Position numbers and translations under genes: made by a program
Assembly: GCA_003220855.1 (NCBI GenBank)
Contig: QHTP01000018.1
Span: 1 to 32,700 of the forward strand
From: Gemmatimonadota bacterium
GTDB taxonomy: Bacteria; Gemmatimonadota; Gemmatimonadetes; Gemmatimonadales; GWC2-71-9
Direction: 5' to 3'
Length of the DNA stretch: 32,700 nucleotides
The notes under the pieces: model-generated
Databases searched by the model: none
What the model was told of the DNA's origin: nothing
Seen by the model: only the letters and a program-made list of their open reading frames with translations
Part shown: in pieces, positions 3,718-23,392 of the stretch
Position numbering within the stretch: position 1 is the stretch's first letter
Layout of the letters: each line of letters begins with the position of its first letter

Positions 3718-4352
3718 CGCGCCGACGCCATCGCGGCCGCCGGGCGCGCGCCGTCGGCGTGGTCGGGGAGCGCGTCCCGGGAGGAGGCGGCCCCGTGCAG
3801 GAAGCGGTCCAACAGCACGTAGCCGTGCTCCGTGAGCACGGACTCGGGGTGGAATTGCACGCCGACCACCGGATGGCGCACGTGCTCCACGGCCATGATC
3901 TCCCCGTCGTCCGCGGTCGCCGTGACGCGAAGCTCGGCGGGCAGACCGGCGCGGGCGATGACGAGCGAATGGTAGCGCGCCGCCAGGAACGGGGTGGGGA
4001 GTCCCGCGAACAGGCCACGCCCGTCGTGCCGGATCCGCGCCGCCTTGCCGTGCACGGGCCGCCCGGCGCGCACGATCGCGGCGCCGTACGCGGCGCCGAC
4101 GCACTGATGACCCAGACAGACGCCCAGGATCGGGATCGTCGGCCCGAACCGACGCACGACGTCCGTGGAGATCCCCGCTTCGCCGGGAGAACAAGGTCCC
4201 GGAGAGATGATGATGCGCGAGGGCTGGAGTCGCTCGATCTCCTCGAGCGTCGTGGCGTCGTGGCGTCGTACGACGGCGTCCTCGCCGAGCTCGCGCACGT
4301 AGCGCGCCAGGTTGAAGACGAAGGAGTCGTAGTTGTCGATCAACAGGATCAT
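3714..4352 (-). CDS. pabA: Aminodeoxychorismate/anthranilate synthase glutamine amidotransferase subunit
   Basis: MILLIDNYDSFVFNLARYV, GVCLGHQ, VGVQFHPESVLTEHG class-I GATase motifs; ATG at 4352. Confidence 0.93.
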   Translation of the reverse strand: MILLIDNYDSFVFNLARYVRELGEDAVVRRHDATTLEEIERLQPSRIIISPGPCSPGEAGISTDVVRRFGPTIPILGVCLGHQCVGAAYGAAIVRAGRPVHGKAARIRHDGRGLFAGLPTPFLAARYHSLVIARAGLPAELRVTATADDGEIMAVEHVRHPVVGVQFHPESVLTEHGYVLLDRFLHGAASSRDALPDHADGARPAAAMASAR

Positions 4353-5824
4353 GGTGCCAGTGCGGCGATAAGCCCGCGCGCCTTGTCGAGGGTCTCCCGA
4401 TACTCCTGCTCGGGATCGGAGTCGGCCACGATGCCGCCGCCGACCTGAAAATACACGTCGCGCCCCCGCACCAGATAGGTTCGGATCACGATGCTCGCGT
4501 CCAGCGCGCCGCTCGTGCTCAGGTAGCCGATCGCGCCGCAGTACACGCCTCGCGCGGTCGGCTCGAGCTCCGCGATGATCTGCATCGCGCGGACTTTCGG
4601 AGCGCCGGTGATCGAGCCGCCGGGAAAAGCAGCGCGCAGCAGGTCCACCGCATCGTGCCCGGGCGCGAGGTCGCCAACGACCGTCGACACGAGGTGGTGC
4701 ACGGTCGCATAGTGCTCGAGCGCGAACAGTTCGGGGACCCGCACCGTGCCGGGCCGACACACCCGCGACAGATCGTTGCGCAGGAGGTCGACGATCATCA
4801 CGTTCTCCGCGCGGTCCTTCTCGCTTTCGGCGAGCGCGAGCGCGAGGGCCGCGTCGTGCTCCGGGCCCACCCCGCGGGGCCGGGTGCCCTTGATGGGGCG
4901 CGTCTCCACCCGGCCGTCCGGCTGCGCGCGCAGGAAGCGCTCCGGCGACGAGCTCGCCACCACCAGGTCGCCGAACTCCAGGAAGGCGGCGAAGGGCGCC
5001 GGGTTGCGGCGCCGCAGCCGGTCGTACAGCGCGAGCGGCGTGCCCATGAGCGGTGCCTCGAGCCGCTGCGACAGGTTCGCCTGGAAAATGTCGCCGGCGC
5101 GGATGTACTCGATCACGCGGGCGACGGCGTCGAGGTATCCGGCACGCGTGAAGTTCGAGCGCACGCCGGGAATGTCGGGGACCGGGTAGGATGGTGCGGC
5201 CGAGCCCCGGGCCAACCGCGCGGGGTCTCCCTGCGCGACAAAACGACACAGTCGCTCCGGGAGACTCCGCGCGTCCGGCCCGACCGAGAGCCGATCCTGC
5301 ACGAATTCCAGCCGTCTCGCAGCGCGCGCACTGCCGGCGCGCCCCCGCTCCGGCATCCCCGTCGAGACCACCCACGCCCGCCCGGCCTGGTGATCCCACG
5401 CGATCACCCAGTCGTACAGCCCGAGCAGCAGGTCGGGTACGGCCAGATCGTCGTACCGCGCCCGCGGGACCCGCTCGAGTGCAGCCCCCCAGTCGTAGCC
5501 TACGTATCCGGCCGCGCCGCCCTGGAACGGCGGGAGAGCCGCCACCGCCGGCCGGCCGTGCGGCGCGAGCAGCGCCCGCACATGCGCGAGGGGATCCGCG
5601 TCGACCCGGATCCAGGTTCCGTCCACGAGTTGCTGCGTGAGCAGACCCTTCGCCCGCACGGCCGTGAACGGATCGGCGGCGAGGAACGAGTGGCGCCCGA
5701 GATGCTCGGGGTCGCTCGCGCTGTCCAGAAACACGAGGTCCGGCACCCCGGCGAGGCGCGCGCAGCAGTCGAGGGGGTCGGGAGCGGGGACGAGCTCTGC
5801 GACGAGCGGTGCCGCGTCGCTCAC
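4349..5824 (-). CDS. pabB: Aminodeoxychorismate synthase component I
   Basis: Chorismate-binding fold; PIKGTRPRG (Lys typical of PabB; TrpE has PIAGT); SITGAPKVRAM; GTG start at 5824. Confidence 0.92.
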   Translation of the reverse strand: MSDAAPLVAELVPAPDPLDCCARLAGVPDLVFLDSASDPEHLGRHSFLAADPFTAVRAKGLLTQQLVDGTWIRVDADPLAHVRALLAPHGRPAVAALPPFQGGAAGYVGYDWGAALERVPRARYDDLAVPDLLLGLYDWVIAWDHQAGRAWVVSTGMPERGRAGSARAARRLEFVQDRLSVGPDARSLPERLCRFVAQGDPARLARGSAAPSYPVPDIPGVRSNFTRAGYLDAVARVIEYIRAGDIFQANLSQRLEAPLMGTPLALYDRLRRRNPAPFAAFLEFGDLVVASSSPERFLRAQPDGRVETRPIKGTRPRGVGPEHDAALALALAESEKDRAENVMIVDLLRNDLSRVCRPGTVRVPELFALEHYATVHHLVSTVVGDLAPGHDAVDLLRAAFPGGSITGAPKVRAMQIIAELEPTARGVYCGAIGYLSTSGALDASIVIRTYLVRGRDVYFQVGGGIVADSDPEQEYRETLDKARGLIAALAP

Positions 5825-14844: not shown

Positions 14845-15605
14845 GCCCCCACCCATCGCAGCAGCTCTCCTTTTCCGAGTTCGGCGAGGTCGCCCGAGTA
14901 GCGCTCGTAGCGTCCAGTTACCTGGGCGGCGGCTACGTCGAGCCGGCAGCGGGACCCCAGGTAGCGCAGCAGCAGCGCGACATGGGGTGGTCGGTAGGTG
15001 CAGGCGTAGCGGAACGTGGCCGGGCGCTCGACCTCACCGAGCGCGACGATCGATCCCCGTTTCAGGAATCGCCCCGTGCCCGGCCCCGCGTTCCCGAACA
15101 GGACCACCGTCCCGGCGATCATGCCCTTGCCCATCCCTCGTCCCCCGTCCCCCGTCACGACCAGCAGTCCCCGCCGCATGCGGGCGCCCGCCTCGTCCCC
15201 GACGCTGCCCCGCACGACGATCTCGCCACCGGTCATGCCGCGCGCGGCGCCTGCCGGCGCGCCACCGGCGTTAGCGCCCGCGTTGCCACGCACGTCGATC
15301 CGCCCGCCCGACATGGCGAGCCCCAAATCGCGCCCCACGCTGCCGTCGATCATCAGCTCGCCTTCCACCATGCCGGTCCCGATCCCGTCGATCCGCGTGC
15401 AATCCCCCTCGATCCGGACGACGCTCGCTCGCTCGCCCCGGACTCGGAAGAACTCGCCGAGCGTGGCCGGGCGGCCGCCGTGCACCACCGGCAGCGCCGC
15501 GATGGCGGTGGCGCCGAGCCCGGCAAACCGGTCCGCGGCGATGCAGTCGGCGACGAGCGTGTGCGTCGGCTGGGTGGCCAGGGTGAGGGTGACGGCGTCG
15601 CTCAT
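14841..15605 (-). CDS. fhcC: Formyltransferase/hydrolase complex subunit C
   Basis: GXXMXXG-type beta-helix repeats (GMVEGELMIDGSVGRDLGLAMSGGRIDVRGNAG...GMTGGEIVVRGSVGDEAGARM...), FwdC-like. Confidence 0.93.
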   Translation of the reverse strand: MSDAVTLTLATQPTHTLVADCIAADRFAGLGATAIAALPVVHGGRPATLGEFFRVRGERASVVRIEGDCTRIDGIGTGMVEGELMIDGSVGRDLGLAMSGGRIDVRGNAGANAGGAPAGAARGMTGGEIVVRGSVGDEAGARMRRGLLVVTGDGGRGMGKGMIAGTVVLFGNAGPGTGRFLKRGSIVALGEVERPATFRYACTYRPPHVALLLRYLGSRCRLDVAAAQVTGRYERYSGDLAELGKGELLRWVGA

Positions 15606-16492
15606 CCCAGAATCTTTCGCAGGTAAAAGTGGTGGGGCCCGAGCTTCCCCCCGTAGTTCCCCGCGGTGATCGTGAGCACACCGGGCCGGCACGCAGCGCG
15701 AATCCCGGCTCGCATCGCCGCCTCGATCGACGGGCCGTCGGTGCCGTCCAGCACGATCTCGAGCACACTGTTCACAACCTCCGGGAGCTGCGACTGGGTG
15801 ACGGCTTTCAGAGTAGGGTCGAAGGCGTCGTTCGTCGTGGCGATCATGTTGCTGTAGCGCTTCGACCCGACCTTGCTCCCGCTCCGCACCACCCCGCCCG
15901 GGAACGGCAGGATCACGCCCGGCGCGCCGGTCATGGCGGCGACGGCGGCCTCGGCGGCGGCCAGCGCGGCGTCCGCATCTCGCGCGAGGATGAGGAAATT
16001 CCCACCGCCCACGCCCTTCAACATCCCAAACGTCTCTTCGATCAGGAACTCCCCTTCCATGACGGGGATGCGCCAGTAGCGCTTGCCGCCGATCACCTTG
16101 CTCGCCTGGAACCCGTCCCCGAACACCCGCAACGCTTTCCCAACGGGCAGCCGGTCCGGCGCATCGGGGAGGCCGTCGAAGCAGGCCGTCGTGGGGCAGG
16201 TGAGCACCGTCTGACCGACCCGCACGATCAGCTGCTCGGGAAGGCTCGCTTTATCCATGGTCAGAAACAGCACGCTCACCCCGGGCCGGCCGTCGGGCGT
16301 CTCGCCGTCCGGGAGCTCGCGTTCGATGCCCGCCTCGCATTTGCACCCGATCACCGACGTGGCGAAGCCGGTCAGTTTGACGGCCGCCTCTTTGGCCCAC
16401 CCGAGCGTCTGCCCCGTGATCAACAGGCGGGCGACCCGCATCGTGAACGCCTCGGCGAACGTGTCCTCGATCGCGACGCCGTTGATCTTCAC
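15602..16492 (-). CDS. fhcD: Formylmethanofuran:H4MPT formyltransferase
   Basis: INGVAIEDTFAEAFTMRVARLLITGQTLGWAKEAAVKLTGFATSVIGCKCEAGIE; ends GNYGGKLGPHHFYLRKILG; GTG at 16492. Confidence 0.95.
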   Translation of the reverse strand: MKINGVAIEDTFAEAFTMRVARLLITGQTLGWAKEAAVKLTGFATSVIGCKCEAGIERELPDGETPDGRPGVSVLFLTMDKASLPEQLIVRVGQTVLTCPTTACFDGLPDAPDRLPVGKALRVFGDGFQASKVIGGKRYWRIPVMEGEFLIEETFGMLKGVGGGNFLILARDADAALAAAEAAVAAMTGAPGVILPFPGGVVRSGSKVGSKRYSNMIATTNDAFDPTLKAVTQSQLPEVVNSVLEIVLDGTDGPSIEAAMRAGIRAACRPGVLTITAGNYGGKLGPHHFYLRKILG

Positions 16493-18123
16493 GGCTCCGC
16501 CCCGTAATTCTCGAACGCGACCGTGGCGTAGTCGTCGAAGAAGCGCCTCACATCCTTCTTCACCGCCACGTCGTAGTCCGGGCGCACGGCGAGCCGCGCT
16601 CCCGCAGGCGCACGCCGCAGCTGGCCTTCCTCGACCACGATGGCCCCGCCTTTGATTACGTAGCGCGGCGCCGCGAACATCTTCGCCCGGTCGGCATCCG
16701 GTGCGTACACGGTCACGTCGGCGTCCGCGCCCGGGCCGAGATGTCCCTTGTGCGAGAGACCGAGCAGCCGGGCGGGGCCGGCGCGCGTGACGATCGCGAT
16801 CTCGCCCAGGGTGTATTCGCGAGCCAACCCGTCCAGCAGCGCGCTCCCGGCCAACAGCTTCTGGTTCACGGCTTTCAGGCGGTCGTCGCGGTAGGCGCGG
16901 TCCATCAGGAGGCGGATCAGCTCCGGATACGAAAGGAACGTCGCCCCGTTGGGATGGTCGGTCGAAAGCACCACGCGCCAGGGGTCCTGGGCCAGCAGGA
17001 ACAGCTCGAGCCCTACCGCCCACTGGAGCGCCGAAACCGCGGCCTTCTCCCGGTAGGAATAGGGAACGATGCCGCACCCCGTCTCGAGCTCGATGTCCAC
17101 GTTGACCCACTTCCGGCCGCTGCTCGCGTACAGCAGGTGTTCGACGGGGCCGTCCGCCGTGACAGTCGTGGCGGACCCGAACATCACCTGGCCCACGTCC
17201 ACGCTCACCTGGGCGTGGCCGTTCACGTACTCGATCACGTCTTTGGCGGCCGACTTCCACCCCTTCCCCCGCTCGCCCCCGTAGCTGTGAAACTGGAGAT
17301 GGGTGAAGTGCGCGCGCTGACCCGCGAGCGCCCGCATCGACTCGAGCGTGGTCGCGGCGTTGCCGGGCTGGCCCAGGTTGTTACAGTGAATGTGGACCGG
17401 GTGAGGCAGGGCGAGCGCGTTCGCCGCCCCCGCCAAGGTCTCGAGGATCTTTCGGGGCGTGACCGCGCTCGACCCGACCGCGTCGTCCAGCCCGCTCACG
17501 TTGCGGCCGCCGCCCGCCCCACCGCTCTTCCATACCGCCACGCCGCCCGGGTTCACGATCTTGATGGCGTACGCGCGGGTGACGCCCAGCAGCCAGCCCG
17601 CGTAATCGCGCGCCCGCGCCGTCTCCCCCGCGGCGATCTGGCGCAGCAGGTAATCGTCGTTGCCGAGCAGCACGAAAAAGCCTGAATCGATGAGCGGTGT
17701 GTCGTCGAGCTCGGCGTGTGCATGCCGCGCCGCAAGCGGCGCCACCGCCGCTTCCATCGCCGTGGTGTAGCCGAGTCCGGCATAGCGATACCCGGTGGCG
17801 AACGTGCTCGGTACCGTCCCGCCTGTTCCGGAGCGTGGCGGCGGGCCGTCCACCAGCCGCGGCGCCGGCGCGGGATCGGCGGCGTGCTCCTCCGGCAGCA
17901 AGCGCCGCGCGTGATTCACGCTCGACCCGGCGACGTGCGCGTGGATGTCCACCCCGCCGGGCATCACCACCATCCCGCGGACGTCGAGGCGCGGCGCGCC
18001 GGCCGGCAACTCCGCCACGATGCCGCCGCCCTCGATGCATACGTCTCGCACCACCCCGTCCACCCCATGCGCGGGGTCGTACACGGTGCCACCGGCGATC
18101 CGCAGCCGGGCGGGTGTCGTCAC
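16489..18123 (-). CDS. fhcA: Formyltransferase/hydrolase complex subunit A (metal-dependent amidohydrolase)
   Basis: GGVDIHAHVAGSSVN (HxH), KIVNPGG (candidate carboxylated Lys), HPVHIHCNNLG, THLQFHSYGG, LSTDHPNGA (Asp); GTG at 18123. Confidence 0.95.
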   Translation of the reverse strand: MTTPARLRIAGGTVYDPAHGVDGVVRDVCIEGGGIVAELPAGAPRLDVRGMVVMPGGVDIHAHVAGSSVNHARRLLPEEHAADPAPAPRLVDGPPPRSGTGGTVPSTFATGYRYAGLGYTTAMEAAVAPLAARHAHAELDDTPLIDSGFFVLLGNDDYLLRQIAAGETARARDYAGWLLGVTRAYAIKIVNPGGVAVWKSGGAGGGRNVSGLDDAVGSSAVTPRKILETLAGAANALALPHPVHIHCNNLGQPGNAATTLESMRALAGQRAHFTHLQFHSYGGERGKGWKSAAKDVIEYVNGHAQVSVDVGQVMFGSATTVTADGPVEHLLYASSGRKWVNVDIELETGCGIVPYSYREKAAVSALQWAVGLELFLLAQDPWRVVLSTDHPNGATFLSYPELIRLLMDRAYRDDRLKAVNQKLLAGSALLDGLAREYTLGEIAIVTRAGPARLLGLSHKGHLGPGADADVTVYAPDADRAKMFAAPRYVIKGGAIVVEEGQLRRAPAGARLAVRPDYDVAVKKDVRRFFDDYATVAFENYGAEP

Positions 18124-19370
18124 GCGCCACCCTCCAGTCGCTCGCGCAGCGCCCGCACCGTGGCCGTCGCGCTGCGCACGTCCTCCCCCTCCAACGCCGG
18201 CCGGAGCGGCAACGGCACGTCGTCCATGCGGAACGCCGTGCCACCCTCGTGGATGCCTGCCACCCCCGTGTCCACCGCGACGACGGGGTTCCAACCCGCG
18301 GCGCTCGCCCGCGGCCCGATCGCGACCGTGGCGACACCGGCGAGCCCCCGGGCCACGGAATCGGGCAGTGTCGCCGGCGCGCCGATCACGAGCGCCGCGT
18401 CCACCTCACCACCCGCGAGCCGTTCGGCCGCGCCGGCGTGTGGCCGGTACGTCGGGTACCCGCGCCCGAAGTCCACTGCGAACGGGAACCCCGTCTGCCA
18501 CGTGAGCACGGCGTCGGCCCCCGAGCGGTTCCCGCCGCCACGGAGCGTTGAGAGGGCACAGCGCGTGCGGCCGTTGAGGGCCTGCGCGAGCGCGATCAGG
18601 GCCTCCGCGCGGTCCGGGTCCAGGGGGATCGGGCCCGGCTCCGCGTCGGCGACCAGCGCCACATATCGCGCTTGGGTCATCTCGTGGACCAGTGCGATCG
18701 CTGGCGCGAGCGCCGCGTTGGTCCCGGCAACCCGCCCCTGGACGGTCGCGCGCATGGTGCCGAGTGCGTCGACCTCGGCATCCGGCCGGATCGCCACCCG
18801 GCCGTCCGCGTCCGCCGGCCCGCGCGCCTCGCCCAGGTCCACCGCGATGACTCGGCGGCTGCTTCTTCCCGCTGGCGCGGCGAGGCCCACGGCGTCGACG
18901 GCGTAGCGCGCGCTGTAGCGCGGATAGCGCGCGCCAGGGTCGACGCCCCAGAACACCACGAGGTCGGCGCGCTGACGCAGCTCGCCGAGGGTTGCGCCCG
19001 CGCGTCCCCGGCGCTGCGCGGCGAGCACACCCGCTCCGGCCGTACCCGCCAGGCTGTCGATCGCGCCCTGGAGGCGATCGGCGATCGCGACGGCGTCGCG
19101 CTGCACTTCGCAGGAAATGTCCCCCGCGAGATAGACGAGCGGGCGCTGCGCGTCCGTCAGAACCTTCGCCGCCTCGGCGATGGCGCGCTCGAGGGTGCCG
19201 GCGCGGCCACGTATCCGGATCTCCTGTGGGACCTGCCCGTCCCCGAACCACGCAGTGCCCAGCACGCACGCCCGTTGCGCCTCGGTGAGCCGACCGCGCT
19301 CGACCACGACCGTGATGTCGTCGCAGGCGCAGCCGCAGCCGAGGCACGTGACGTGCTCGACGGCGCTCAC
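18120..19370 (-). CDS. fhcB: Formyltransferase/hydrolase complex subunit B (FwdB-like)
   Basis: VTCLGCGCACDDITVV, RACVLGTAWFG, NGRTRCALSTLRGGGNRSGADAVLTWQTGFPFAVDFGRGYPTYRP; GTG at 19370. Confidence 0.93.
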   Translation of the reverse strand: MSAVEHVTCLGCGCACDDITVVVERGRLTEAQRACVLGTAWFGDGQVPQEIRIRGRAGTLERAIAEAAKVLTDAQRPLVYLAGDISCEVQRDAVAIADRLQGAIDSLAGTAGAGVLAAQRRGRAGATLGELRQRADLVVFWGVDPGARYPRYSARYAVDAVGLAAPAGRSSRRVIAVDLGEARGPADADGRVAIRPDAEVDALGTMRATVQGRVAGTNAALAPAIALVHEMTQARYVALVADAEPGPIPLDPDRAEALIALAQALNGRTRCALSTLRGGGNRSGADAVLTWQTGFPFAVDFGRGYPTYRPHAGAAERLAGGEVDAALVIGAPATLPDSVARGLAGVATVAIGPRASAAGWNPVVAVDTGVAGIHEGGTAFRMDDVPLPLRPALEGEDVRSATATVRALRERLEGGA

Positions 19371-20387
19371 GCGATCCTCGCGCGCTGCGCTTCCAGGGAC
19401 AGGTACAGAGTGCGGGCTCGGGCGGCGAGCGCCGCGCCGCACGCGGCCACCGTGCCCCCGCGCGCGAACAACGTGCAGATGGGATGGCCCCGCTCGATGC
19501 GTTCCCCCGGCGGAGGCACGTCGCGCACGTCGTCGTCTTCCAGCCAGCGCGCCGTCCCCTCCGGGACCAGGTCGTGTCGGGCGTAGAGGATCGCTTTCCC
19601 CACCACATCGGCCGGGCCAGGCCCGGTAAGGGCCACCTCGGGGAGGTGCCCGGCGCAGGCGCGAGCGTGCAGCTGGAAGATCGAAATCCCCCGCGCCCGC
19701 TCGACGAGCTCCATCGACGCGCAATAGCGCGGGTTCACTTCCACGGTGTAGGGCACGCCGCTGCGAGCGACGAAATCGATGCCGTTGACGCCCACGAGCC
19801 CGAACGCTTCGGTAACGGCGGTGGCGAGGCGGCACGCGTTGCCGAACAGCGGCTCATCGGGGCCGACGAGCATGCTGCCGCAGTAGCGGAAGCCGCCGGC
19901 CCCGAAACGCGGATCCCCCGCGAGGGCCTGCGACACGCCCAACGGCACCGCGCGGTGCCCGTCCGCGGCGAACACGATCGACCCCGGAGTGCCCGCCACC
20001 CGTTGCTGTAGATAGCTGCCGCGTGGCAGCGCGCCGCCCCGCCACGGCGCCACGCCGCCGCCGCCTCCCGATGCCCGCGGTTTTACGAGCCAGCGTCCCC
20101 TCGCCGCGTTGCCGCCCGGCGCCGTGGCGCGGACGGCCGGCGCAGGGAGCCCCCGCGTTTTCCAAGCTGCCCACATAGCACACCACGTCCACTCGCAGCC
20201 GGCGCGCGGCGGCGACGGCGGCGCGGATGCTGAACCGCCCGGCGCTGCGCGCCACGCTGACCGACTGCGCCCGAGCGCGCAGGTCCAGGTCGCCGAAGCC
20301 ATCCACGGCGAGCACGTCGTATCCTGCCCGCGCGGCCGATTCCGCGAACCCTCGCGTGGAGACGCCCGCGATGAGCACGCGCGTCAC
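19367..20387 (-). pseudogene. ATP-grasp protein of the H4MPT cluster, split by an apparent frameshift
   Basis: N-terminal part (MTRVLIAGVSTRGFAESAARAGYDVLAVDGFGDLDL...VVCYVGSLENAG) in one frame from GTG 20387; C-terminal ATP-grasp part (GLPAPAVRATAPGGNAARGRWLVKPRASGGGGGV...VNGIDFVARSGVPYTVEVNPRYCASMELVERARG) in another frame ending 19367. Frame switch near 20150-20154. Confidence 0.8.
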
Positions 20388-21475
20388 GCGGGCCCCCCCT
20401 CCAGCCGGCGACGTGCTCGCTCGCGCGGGATGACGTAGAGATGGTCGAGCACCGTGCCCCGCGCCTCACGAATCGCGAGGAGCTCGACGAGCTCCCGGTT
20501 GGCACCGCCGGCGAGCCCGTCGGCCAGGAGTGCCGCTCCCTGGGCGCCCTCTTTGGCGGTCCGGGCGAATCCCTCGAGCAGCCGGGTGGGCGCGAACGAG
20601 CTGAGCCGCTGACGGATCGCGTGGCTGACGCCCTCGACCTGCGCGAGCCGACCGGACAGCACGAATTCTTTCGGGGAGGGGACCGATGCGGCCAGCGCCA
20701 CCGCCGTCTTTACGGCGCCCTCGACGAAGGCCTCCCATGCGGTCTGCTCGGCCGGCGTCGCCGGATGCGCCAGCCGTTCGGGGGACGTGCTCGCCTCGTC
20801 CCACCCGGCGACGGCCGCGGCGCCGCCCTGGAACAGGAGCGCCTTGGACACCTCTCCCGCGAGGTACGCGACTTCGCCGTCGAGCGCGCCTGCGGCGCGA
20901 AAGCCGAGCGGCCCGGCCGTGCCTCCCACCCCATCCACGATCCGACCTCCCGCCACCGCGACGGCAGCGGTGAACGCGCCGCCCAGCTCGAGCAGCACGA
21001 GCGACACCGTAGCGAGCGGTCGCCCGGACTGCCGAGCCTGCTGTGTGATCGCCAGCGCCACGGCGCAGACCTTGTCGGCCGTGCCCATGTCGACCCGGTT
21101 CACCTTGCGATGCACCGCCACGGTGGGGAGGTGCACCACCCCCGGCGTGAGGACCACCGGCAGCCGGGAGCGCGCCAGGGCGCGCACGAGGGCACGGAGC
21201 CCGCCGATGCCCCCGCGCTCGTGGGGAGCGGCGAGGAACGCGAGACGCAGATCTTCGTCCGTGGCGTCCTGCGCGCGGGTCAGGGGGAGGCCGTACCCGG
21301 ACGGTCCCGCCACGAGGTCGAGGGGGCCGGCTGCCTCGAGCTCGAGGATGAAGCGCGCCGGATCGGCCAAGGCCTCCGCGGTCGGCCAGGAGCGGTCGAG
21401 AAACACGCGACCCTGGTCCAGCCCGCAGAGATCGATGCTCACCGTCCCCGGGTCGATACCGATGACGCGGGGCAT
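20384..21475 (-). CDS. DUF1464-family (ASKHA-like) protein
   Basis: MPRVIGIDPGTVSIDLCGLDQGRVFLDRS, DLVAGPSGYGLPLT, VHLPTVAVHRKVNRVDMGTADKVCAVALAI, EFVLSGRLAQ. Confidence 0.82.
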   Translation of the reverse strand: MPRVIGIDPGTVSIDLCGLDQGRVFLDRSWPTAEALADPARFILELEAAGPLDLVAGPSGYGLPLTRAQDATDEDLRLAFLAAPHERGGIGGLRALVRALARSRLPVVLTPGVVHLPTVAVHRKVNRVDMGTADKVCAVALAITQQARQSGRPLATVSLVLLELGGAFTAAVAVAGGRIVDGVGGTAGPLGFRAAGALDGEVAYLAGEVSKALLFQGGAAAVAGWDEASTSPERLAHPATPAEQTAWEAFVEGAVKTAVALAASVPSPKEFVLSGRLAQVEGVSHAIRQRLSSFAPTRLLEGFARTAKEGAQGAALLADGLAGGANRELVELLAIREARGTVLDHLYVIPRERARRRLEGGPA

Positions 21476-21479
21476 CGGA

Positions 21480-22358
21480 TCACTGCTTCGGCGCCATCAA
21501 CTCCCGCGCGACGTCGGCGATGGTCTCCGCGTCCAGCACGAGGTCGTTGCGCTCGAACAGGCGGGCGATGCACGCCTTGTGCACCTTCATCTTGAGGTTT
21601 CCGATGGCGAGTGCACCCAGGCACACCACGCCGTCTTTCGTCACGCCATCGTCCATCACCTCCACCCCCTCGATGCCGAGCGGGGGAACCGCGTTCACGT
21701 CCGCCACCACCTTGAGTCCGGGCCGGTTGGCCCACGCCCGCTTCGGGACCAGCATCACTCCCGCGGGGCCGGCGTTGAGCAGCAGCTCCGCGCGCTCGCA
21801 CGCGCGGACGGCCTCGCTCGCGTCCGCCATCGCGATGGCGCGCACCTTCCCGCCGAACCGCTTGAGCACGAGATCGCGGGCCCGCTCTCCCGCGTCGGCC
21901 TTGCGCGACGTGATGCACACGTCCGCGCCCGCCTTGGCGAACAGCCCGGCGGCGCGAATCCCCACCGGCCCGGTGCCCGCGACGATCAGGACCCGCGTGC
22001 CGCGCACCTCACCTCCCCCGGCCGCCTGCACCATCTTCGCCACCGCGGCGACCGCTGTCGTGTTGGACCCGTTCGAATCCAGCATCGCGGACACCGTGAA
22101 GGGCTTGAACATCGCTTTCGTCGCGGCGGCGAGCAGCTGCTCACCCACGGCGATGTCCGCGCCTCCGACGAACACGGCGGAGCTCTTCAAGTCCTTGGGA
22201 CCGCGTGTGAAGATGCAGCCGTGGATCAGGTCGCGGACGTCGGCGTCGGTCACGCCGCCGTAGCTCATCACCTCATCGGCGCCGCCGTCGTACGCGACCA
22301 CCCGATCGAACACGCTCGGCAGCCTGGAGCTGACGAGCTGCAGCAGCAGCTTACGCAT
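21480..22358 (-). CDS. mtdB: NAD(P)-dependent methylene-H4MPT dehydrogenase
   Basis: KLLLQLVSSRLPSVFDRVVAYDGGADEVMSYGGVT, SAMLDSNGSNTTAVAAV, VLIVAGTGPVGIRAAGLFAKAGADVCITSRK; ATG at 22358. Confidence 0.95.
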   Translation of the reverse strand: MRKLLLQLVSSRLPSVFDRVVAYDGGADEVMSYGGVTDADVRDLIHGCIFTRGPKDLKSSAVFVGGADIAVGEQLLAAATKAMFKPFTVSAMLDSNGSNTTAVAAVAKMVQAAGGGEVRGTRVLIVAGTGPVGIRAAGLFAKAGADVCITSRKADAGERARDLVLKRFGGKVRAIAMADASEAVRACERAELLLNAGPAGVMLVPKRAWANRPGLKVVADVNAVPPLGIEGVEVMDDGVTKDGVVCLGALAIGNLKMKVHKACIARLFERNDLVLDAETIADVARELMAPKQ

Positions 22359-22403
22359 CAGGACGCACGCTCCACGGTGAGTCGGCGTAGGGTTCGAAAC
22401 GCA

Positions 22404-22432
22404 GTCGAGGGGCGGCAGCCCCGCCCCTCGAC
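22404..22432 (-). terminator. Perfect 12-bp hairpin between fae and mtdB; candidate attenuator or mRNA-stability element
   Basis: GTCGAGGGGCGG (22404-22415) - CAGCC - CCGCCCCTCGAC (22421-22432), about 26 nt after the fae stop; followed on minus by TGCGTTTCG. Confidence 0.65.
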
Positions 22433-22458: not shown

Positions 22459-22974
22459 TCAGCCCTTGTCCGCGCCACCCGCGAATGGATGTGTCGCCGT
22501 CTTCGCCTGGGAGATCACCTGGTCGATCTTCGGCTGCCCCTTGAGGGCGCGCTCGATGGACTCCTTCACCGCCCGATAGTTGAAGTCGTAGATTTTCTTG
22601 TCGTTCTTCGCCTCCCAGTGGATGAACACCCCCACCAGGATGCAATAGTCGTCCACTTTGTCCCGCGGGATGATCCCGGACGACACGCTGTCCACCACCG
22701 CGCGCGCCACCGCCGCCTGCGCCGGGCCGAACATCTGCACGGCCTGCGTGGCGTTCTTGATGGTGACCTTGTTGAAGAGGAGCGTGTCGGGCTTGGCCGG
22801 CAGGTTGGGCGTGACGACGGCGAGGAGCTTGGTGAAACCGTCGGTGTTGTTCGCCAACGTGCTGACGAAGGCGTGCCCCGCGTGGCCCGACTTCGACCCG
22901 ATGATCAGGTCGATGTGGGCGACCTCATTCCCGTCGCCTACCAGAGACTCGCCAAGGAAGAAATCCGCTGCCAT
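22459..22974 (-). CDS. fae: Formaldehyde-activating enzyme
   Basis: [97 protein letters not shown]. Confidence 0.97.
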
Positions 22975-23145: not shown

Positions 23146-23191
23146 TGTCAAGGCCGCGCAGCGGGGCCGCCAAATGGAACTCTTTCGGGTG

Positions 23192-23392
23192 TTATGGCGG
23201 CGCCGCGCCCCCGGTGGCGACGCGCCACACCTCGTCCGCCAGCCATTCCAGGCGCTGCTGCGCGTAGTCGAGCTCGGCGGGCGTCATCTCCTTCGCGCGC
23301 CGCACGAGCGCGCGCGTGTGGGCGAGCAGATCGTCCAGCACTTCGCGCAGCGGCCGGTTGTGGCGCCGCTCCGCCCGCGGCCGCGGACTCAT
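23192..23392 (-). CDS. Small hypothetical protein (66 aa)
   Basis: MSPRPRAERRHNRPLREVLDDLLAHTRALVRRAKEMTPAELDYAQQRLEWLADEVWRVATGGAAPP; ATG at 23392 overlaps the stop of the zincin gene by 4 nt. Confidence 0.65.
   Translation of the reverse strand: MSPRPRAERRHNRPLREVLDDLLAHTRALVRRAKEMTPAELDYAQQRLEWLADEVWRVATGGAAPP

Follow-up and report, generated by a model that had tools for sequence, protein, structure and literature searches.

In a one-carbon operon of an uncultured soil bacterium of the Gemmatimonadota, an ATP-grasp gene is broken by the absence of 110 nt that are present in both of its closest relatives. The break is real in the assembled sequence, and we regard the gene as an ordinary one of which a piece is absent, probably from the assembly alone; an assembly error is the most likely cause, a loss of very recent date the next, and neither involves a new genetic mechanism. 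The stretch analysed (32,700 nt; hereafter, the window) is from contig 22 of a MAG of 2.96 Mb, which is divided among 365 contigs and is 76% complete. Our closest comparators, G001 and G009, are of the same genus and align collinearly with the window, with identities of about 82–90% (~87%). The window is 71.5% GC, contains no N, and is otherwise clean across ~26 kb.

The broken gene (19367–20387; all genes named here for the window are on the minus strand) has intact neighbours throughout its operon, in the order fae-mtdB-DUF1464-ATP-grasp-fhcBAD. To its 5' side are fae, for formaldehyde-activating enzyme (22462–22974; PF08714 and TIGR03126), an mtdB-like gene for methylene-H4MPT dehydrogenase (21483–22430; PF09176), and a gene for a DUF1464 protein (20384–21475; PF07318), which has a 4-nt overlap with the ATP-grasp start. 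To its 3' side, an fhcB-like gene for subunit B of formylmethanofuran dehydrogenase (18120–19370), whose GTG start overlaps the ATP-grasp stop, was named from its sequence and from a TIGR03129 match (E=4e-86, 289 bits) that is below the model cutoff of 328; it is followed by fhcA (16492–18117; TIGR03121) and the formyltransferase gene fhcD (15605–16501; TIGR03119), both scoring above cutoff. Synonymous divergence of the DUF1464 gene from G001 and G009 was 0.72–0.83, or about twice that of the neighbouring genes (0.3–0.45), which suggests a recombined segment.

The orthologues of the broken gene in G001 and G009 are each a single ORF of 377–380 amino acids. Against a PF02655 gathering score of 23.2, the C-terminal part of the window gene scored 62.2 bits and the intact G009 orthologue 68.9 bits. 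With an AF2 model of the intact orthologue (pLDDT 92.4), the best Foldseek matches were biotin carboxylases (E 1e-20, TMq ~0.7), as expected of an ATP-grasp fold. NCBIfam has no model that names MyfA or OrfY; by this fold and by its context, an H4MPT/methylofuran fhc cluster with fae, mtdB-like, DUF1464 and fhcBAD genes around it, the gene is an ordinary putative ATP-grasp ligase of the OrfY/MyfA type. In methylotrophs, orfY (myfA), the ATP-grasp gene of the cluster, is required to add glutamates to methylofuran, and in Methylorubrum extorquens a myfA deletion was not obtainable and appeared lethal (PMC8141765). The window gene shares with the MyfA described there the ATP-grasp fold and a place in the fhc/H4MPT operon alongside fae, mtdB-like and fhcBAD genes, and the likeness is drawn from that gene cluster and fold; unlike MyfA, it is 37 codons short and its reading frame is disrupted. 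Adjoining fae, mtdB and fhc genes are also described for soil Gemmatimonadetes (PMC5103831), where the available part of the report makes no mention of a broken ATP-grasp gene such as the one in the window.

The 2 parts of the gene lie in different frames, as the first-pass annotation had stated. The ORF from GTG 20387 makes ATP-grasp sense until ...VVCYVGSLENAG (...CYVGSLENAG) and then runs out of frame to a stop at 19854, and the C-terminal ATP-grasp part occupies another frame at 19370–20149, with a TGA stop at 19369–19367. The in-frame N-terminal part, of ~78 amino acids (20154–20387), aligns with residues 1–77 of the G009 protein, and the C-terminal part matches PF02655 profile positions 31–159. 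Ends of blastn HSPs and a MAFFT alignment placed the junction at 20156–20157, with a 1-nt overlap; both relatives align cleanly on each side of 20157, and both contain the 110 nt that the window lacks there. An internal deletion not divisible by three had been offered as a second option in that annotation, with roughly 40 residues absent; the orthologue alignment bears this out at 110 nt or 36.7 codons, that is, a 37-codon block minus one base.

We observed that this block is exactly 111 nt in nearly all of the homologues measured, which are from Gemmatimonadota, Acidobacteriota, Methylomirabilota and Chloroflexota; in 3 it is longer and in frame, and none of those measured is without it. It corresponds to residues 78–114 of the G009 protein, which in an alignment of 24 sequences include the invariant G93 and R103 and the nearly invariant N94 and P105, and which in the AlphaFold model form three confidently predicted helices that connect the N-terminal and ATP-grasp domains. 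At the nucleotide level the block is 81–84% GC and can fold back upon itself. In G009 a 110-nt interval starting within the block was the most stable foldback of 796 such intervals in 20 kb, in G001 the foldback of the block was in the top 0.8%, and the foot of a long hairpin lies only a few bases from the two ends of the deletion. Synonymous-shuffle z scores for the foldback were about -2 to -2.9 in G009, G001, G024 and 2 other genomes, and near 0 in most genomes. We considered and rejected the idea that the block contains a conserved RNA or DNA structure, since an Rfam search of the block gave no match and the foldback is unusually strong in some genomes only; it looks incidental to GC-rich coding.

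Relaxed selection following the lesion was sought by dN/dS on the C-terminal part of the gene and was not found, the value being 0.27 relative to the relatives and 0.26 between the intact genes of G001 and G009. The N-terminal part gave 0.17–0.22, and changes private to the window in the C-terminal part favour third codon positions. The damage is therefore recent or is not in the organism, and a decaying pseudogene with an old lesion, though only that, is ruled out by these values.

We also compared the 163.6 kb of the MAG that is covered by both G001 and G009, and found three other clean coding losses private to the MAG, of 102, 113 and 130 nt, and no loss of comparable size specific to G001 or to G009. 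The first (L127:3139, in G000:C10) removes 34 codons in frame, relative to G009, from a Y-family polymerase-like gene; comparison with G001 is complicated at this position by a further difference nearby. The second (L127:9374, in the same contig) removes 113 nt, relative to both relatives, from the start of a DUF47/PhoU-like gene, with a junction overlap of 2–3 nt, and the third (L210:17807, in G000:C50) is a blunt loss of 130 nt, also relative to both, close to where a histidine-kinase-like gene begins; the 3 genes were named from their translations. Larger losses in repeat-rich intergenic sequence (L180:2827, L180:13018, L171:923 and L214:6973) and a whole-gene difference of 926 nt (L175:1945) look like ordinary variation and were left uncounted. 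Hairpins as a general cause of the private losses found no support, the other three segments not being extreme foldbacks. From pairwise dS, we estimate that the MAG branch makes up ~60% of the three-genome tree, and the chance that all 4 coding losses would fall on it is ~0.13 from branch length alone, so that their count is not in itself strong evidence. An assembly origin gains weight because the sizes cluster at 102–130 nt, because 3 of the 4 losses disrupt a reading frame or gene start, and because selection on the ATP-grasp gene is unrelaxed. A different frame-breaking loss, of ~34 nt, was seen inside the same 111-nt block in G008 (L014:395–483), another MAG of the genus, whose contig ends within the ATP-grasp gene.

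Taking these observations together, we infer that the 110-nt gap probably arose in sequencing or assembly (library preparation included) rather than in the chromosome, and that the gene is most likely intact in the organism. A block of ~84% GC with a very strong hairpin could have been poorly covered or skipped in sequencing, as its composition and foldback make plausible, and the 2 flanks would then have been joined directly in a fragmented MAG. This interpretation is favoured by conservation of the block and its presence in both collinear relatives, by the unrelaxed selection, by the extreme foldback, by the other coding losses of comparable size that are private to this MAG, by junction overlaps of only 0–3 nt at these losses, and by the G008 loss in the same block near a contig end. 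Against it are the long MAG branch, the ordinary hairpin potential of the other three segments, and the cleanness of a window without N. Many apparent pseudogenes in draft genomes are assembly errors (PMC11017572), and the present case is like those in that a conserved gene appears disrupted in a fragmented assembly while close relatives have it intact; the defects described there are internal stops or single-base indels, whereas here the assembled sequence shows a loss of ~110 nt. Also, scaffolding errors needed correction in the grassland-soil MAG set that is the apparent source of the AG-named relatives (PMC6784897).

A real and recent 110-nt deletion at the hairpin, affecting the sampled strain or a fraction of its population, is possible, and we give it a lesser though appreciable probability. 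Such a deletion would inactivate the ligase and with it methylofuran-dependent formaldehyde oxidation, and would mean that a gene believed to be essential for methylofuran-dependent methylotrophy was lost very recently. It is consistent with the position of the deletion ends at the hairpin foot, with variable presence of the gene among relatives (a strong match in ~14 of the 61 searched), and with the overlapping G008 loss, which could be a second real event. Yet the C-terminal part shows no decay, the gene has intact neighbours in its operon, a myfA deletion appeared lethal in M. extorquens, the 1-nt junction overlap is unlike typical replication slippage, and the MAG has its other losses of similar size. 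An extension of this idea, in which the GC-rich foldback truly acts as a hotspot for deletions in this genus and independent losses of part of the same block in the window genome and in G008 repeatedly switch off methylofuran synthesis in soil Gemmatimonadota, we consider unlikely.

That the gene is complete but for a single-base sequencing error or slip at the C5/G5 run, as the first-pass annotation had proposed, is highly improbable. The run was correctly located at 20150–20154 (C5 on the plus strand), and skipping one base there does bring both parts into one frame. However, the run adjoins the junction without being its cause: the relatives have G4 preceded by A at this point (CAGGGGC as compared with CGGGGGC in the window), the alignments with both refute the slip by the 110 nt missing at 20157, and a one-base change would not supply the conserved 37-codon block. 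Runs of C or G of at least 5 number 96 in the window, and the C5 run therefore carries no signal. Programmed +1 frameshifting, or an enzyme naturally encoded by two ORFs, as also raised in the annotation, has nothing beyond the adjoining G run in its favour and is effectively excluded, since nearly all homologues examined are single, unbroken ORFs through the region, no two-frame arrangement retaining all domains was found in the relatives, and a fused product would still omit 37 conserved residues, among them the invariant G93 and R103 and the three predicted helices, so that a frameshift could not restore a normal enzyme. The exceptions to a single ORF among the homologues are the window, G008, whose deletion is not the same, and one distant homologue, which carries a TAG near its N-terminus; an in-frame TAG in this position is present in the gammaproteobacterial ATP-grasp homologue at L086:2677–3744.

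These results caution against inferring loss of a pathway from a single MAG, in that this lineage would be scored as defective in formaldehyde oxidation, which it probably is not. Clean coding losses of 100–130 nt private to one MAG, combined with unrelaxed selection, constitute a simple check that could be used on other MAGs.

Two further differences between the genomes were observed. Relative to G009, the window lacks 4248 nt at 4346–4354 and 1676 nt at 23170–23202, and the latter segment, which is absent from G003 as well, looks like an insertion in G009. Also, an 85-nt palindromic element (L127:2858–2942) occurs in dozens of copies in G009 and in fewer copies in G001, and may represent a mobile or REP-like repeat family.
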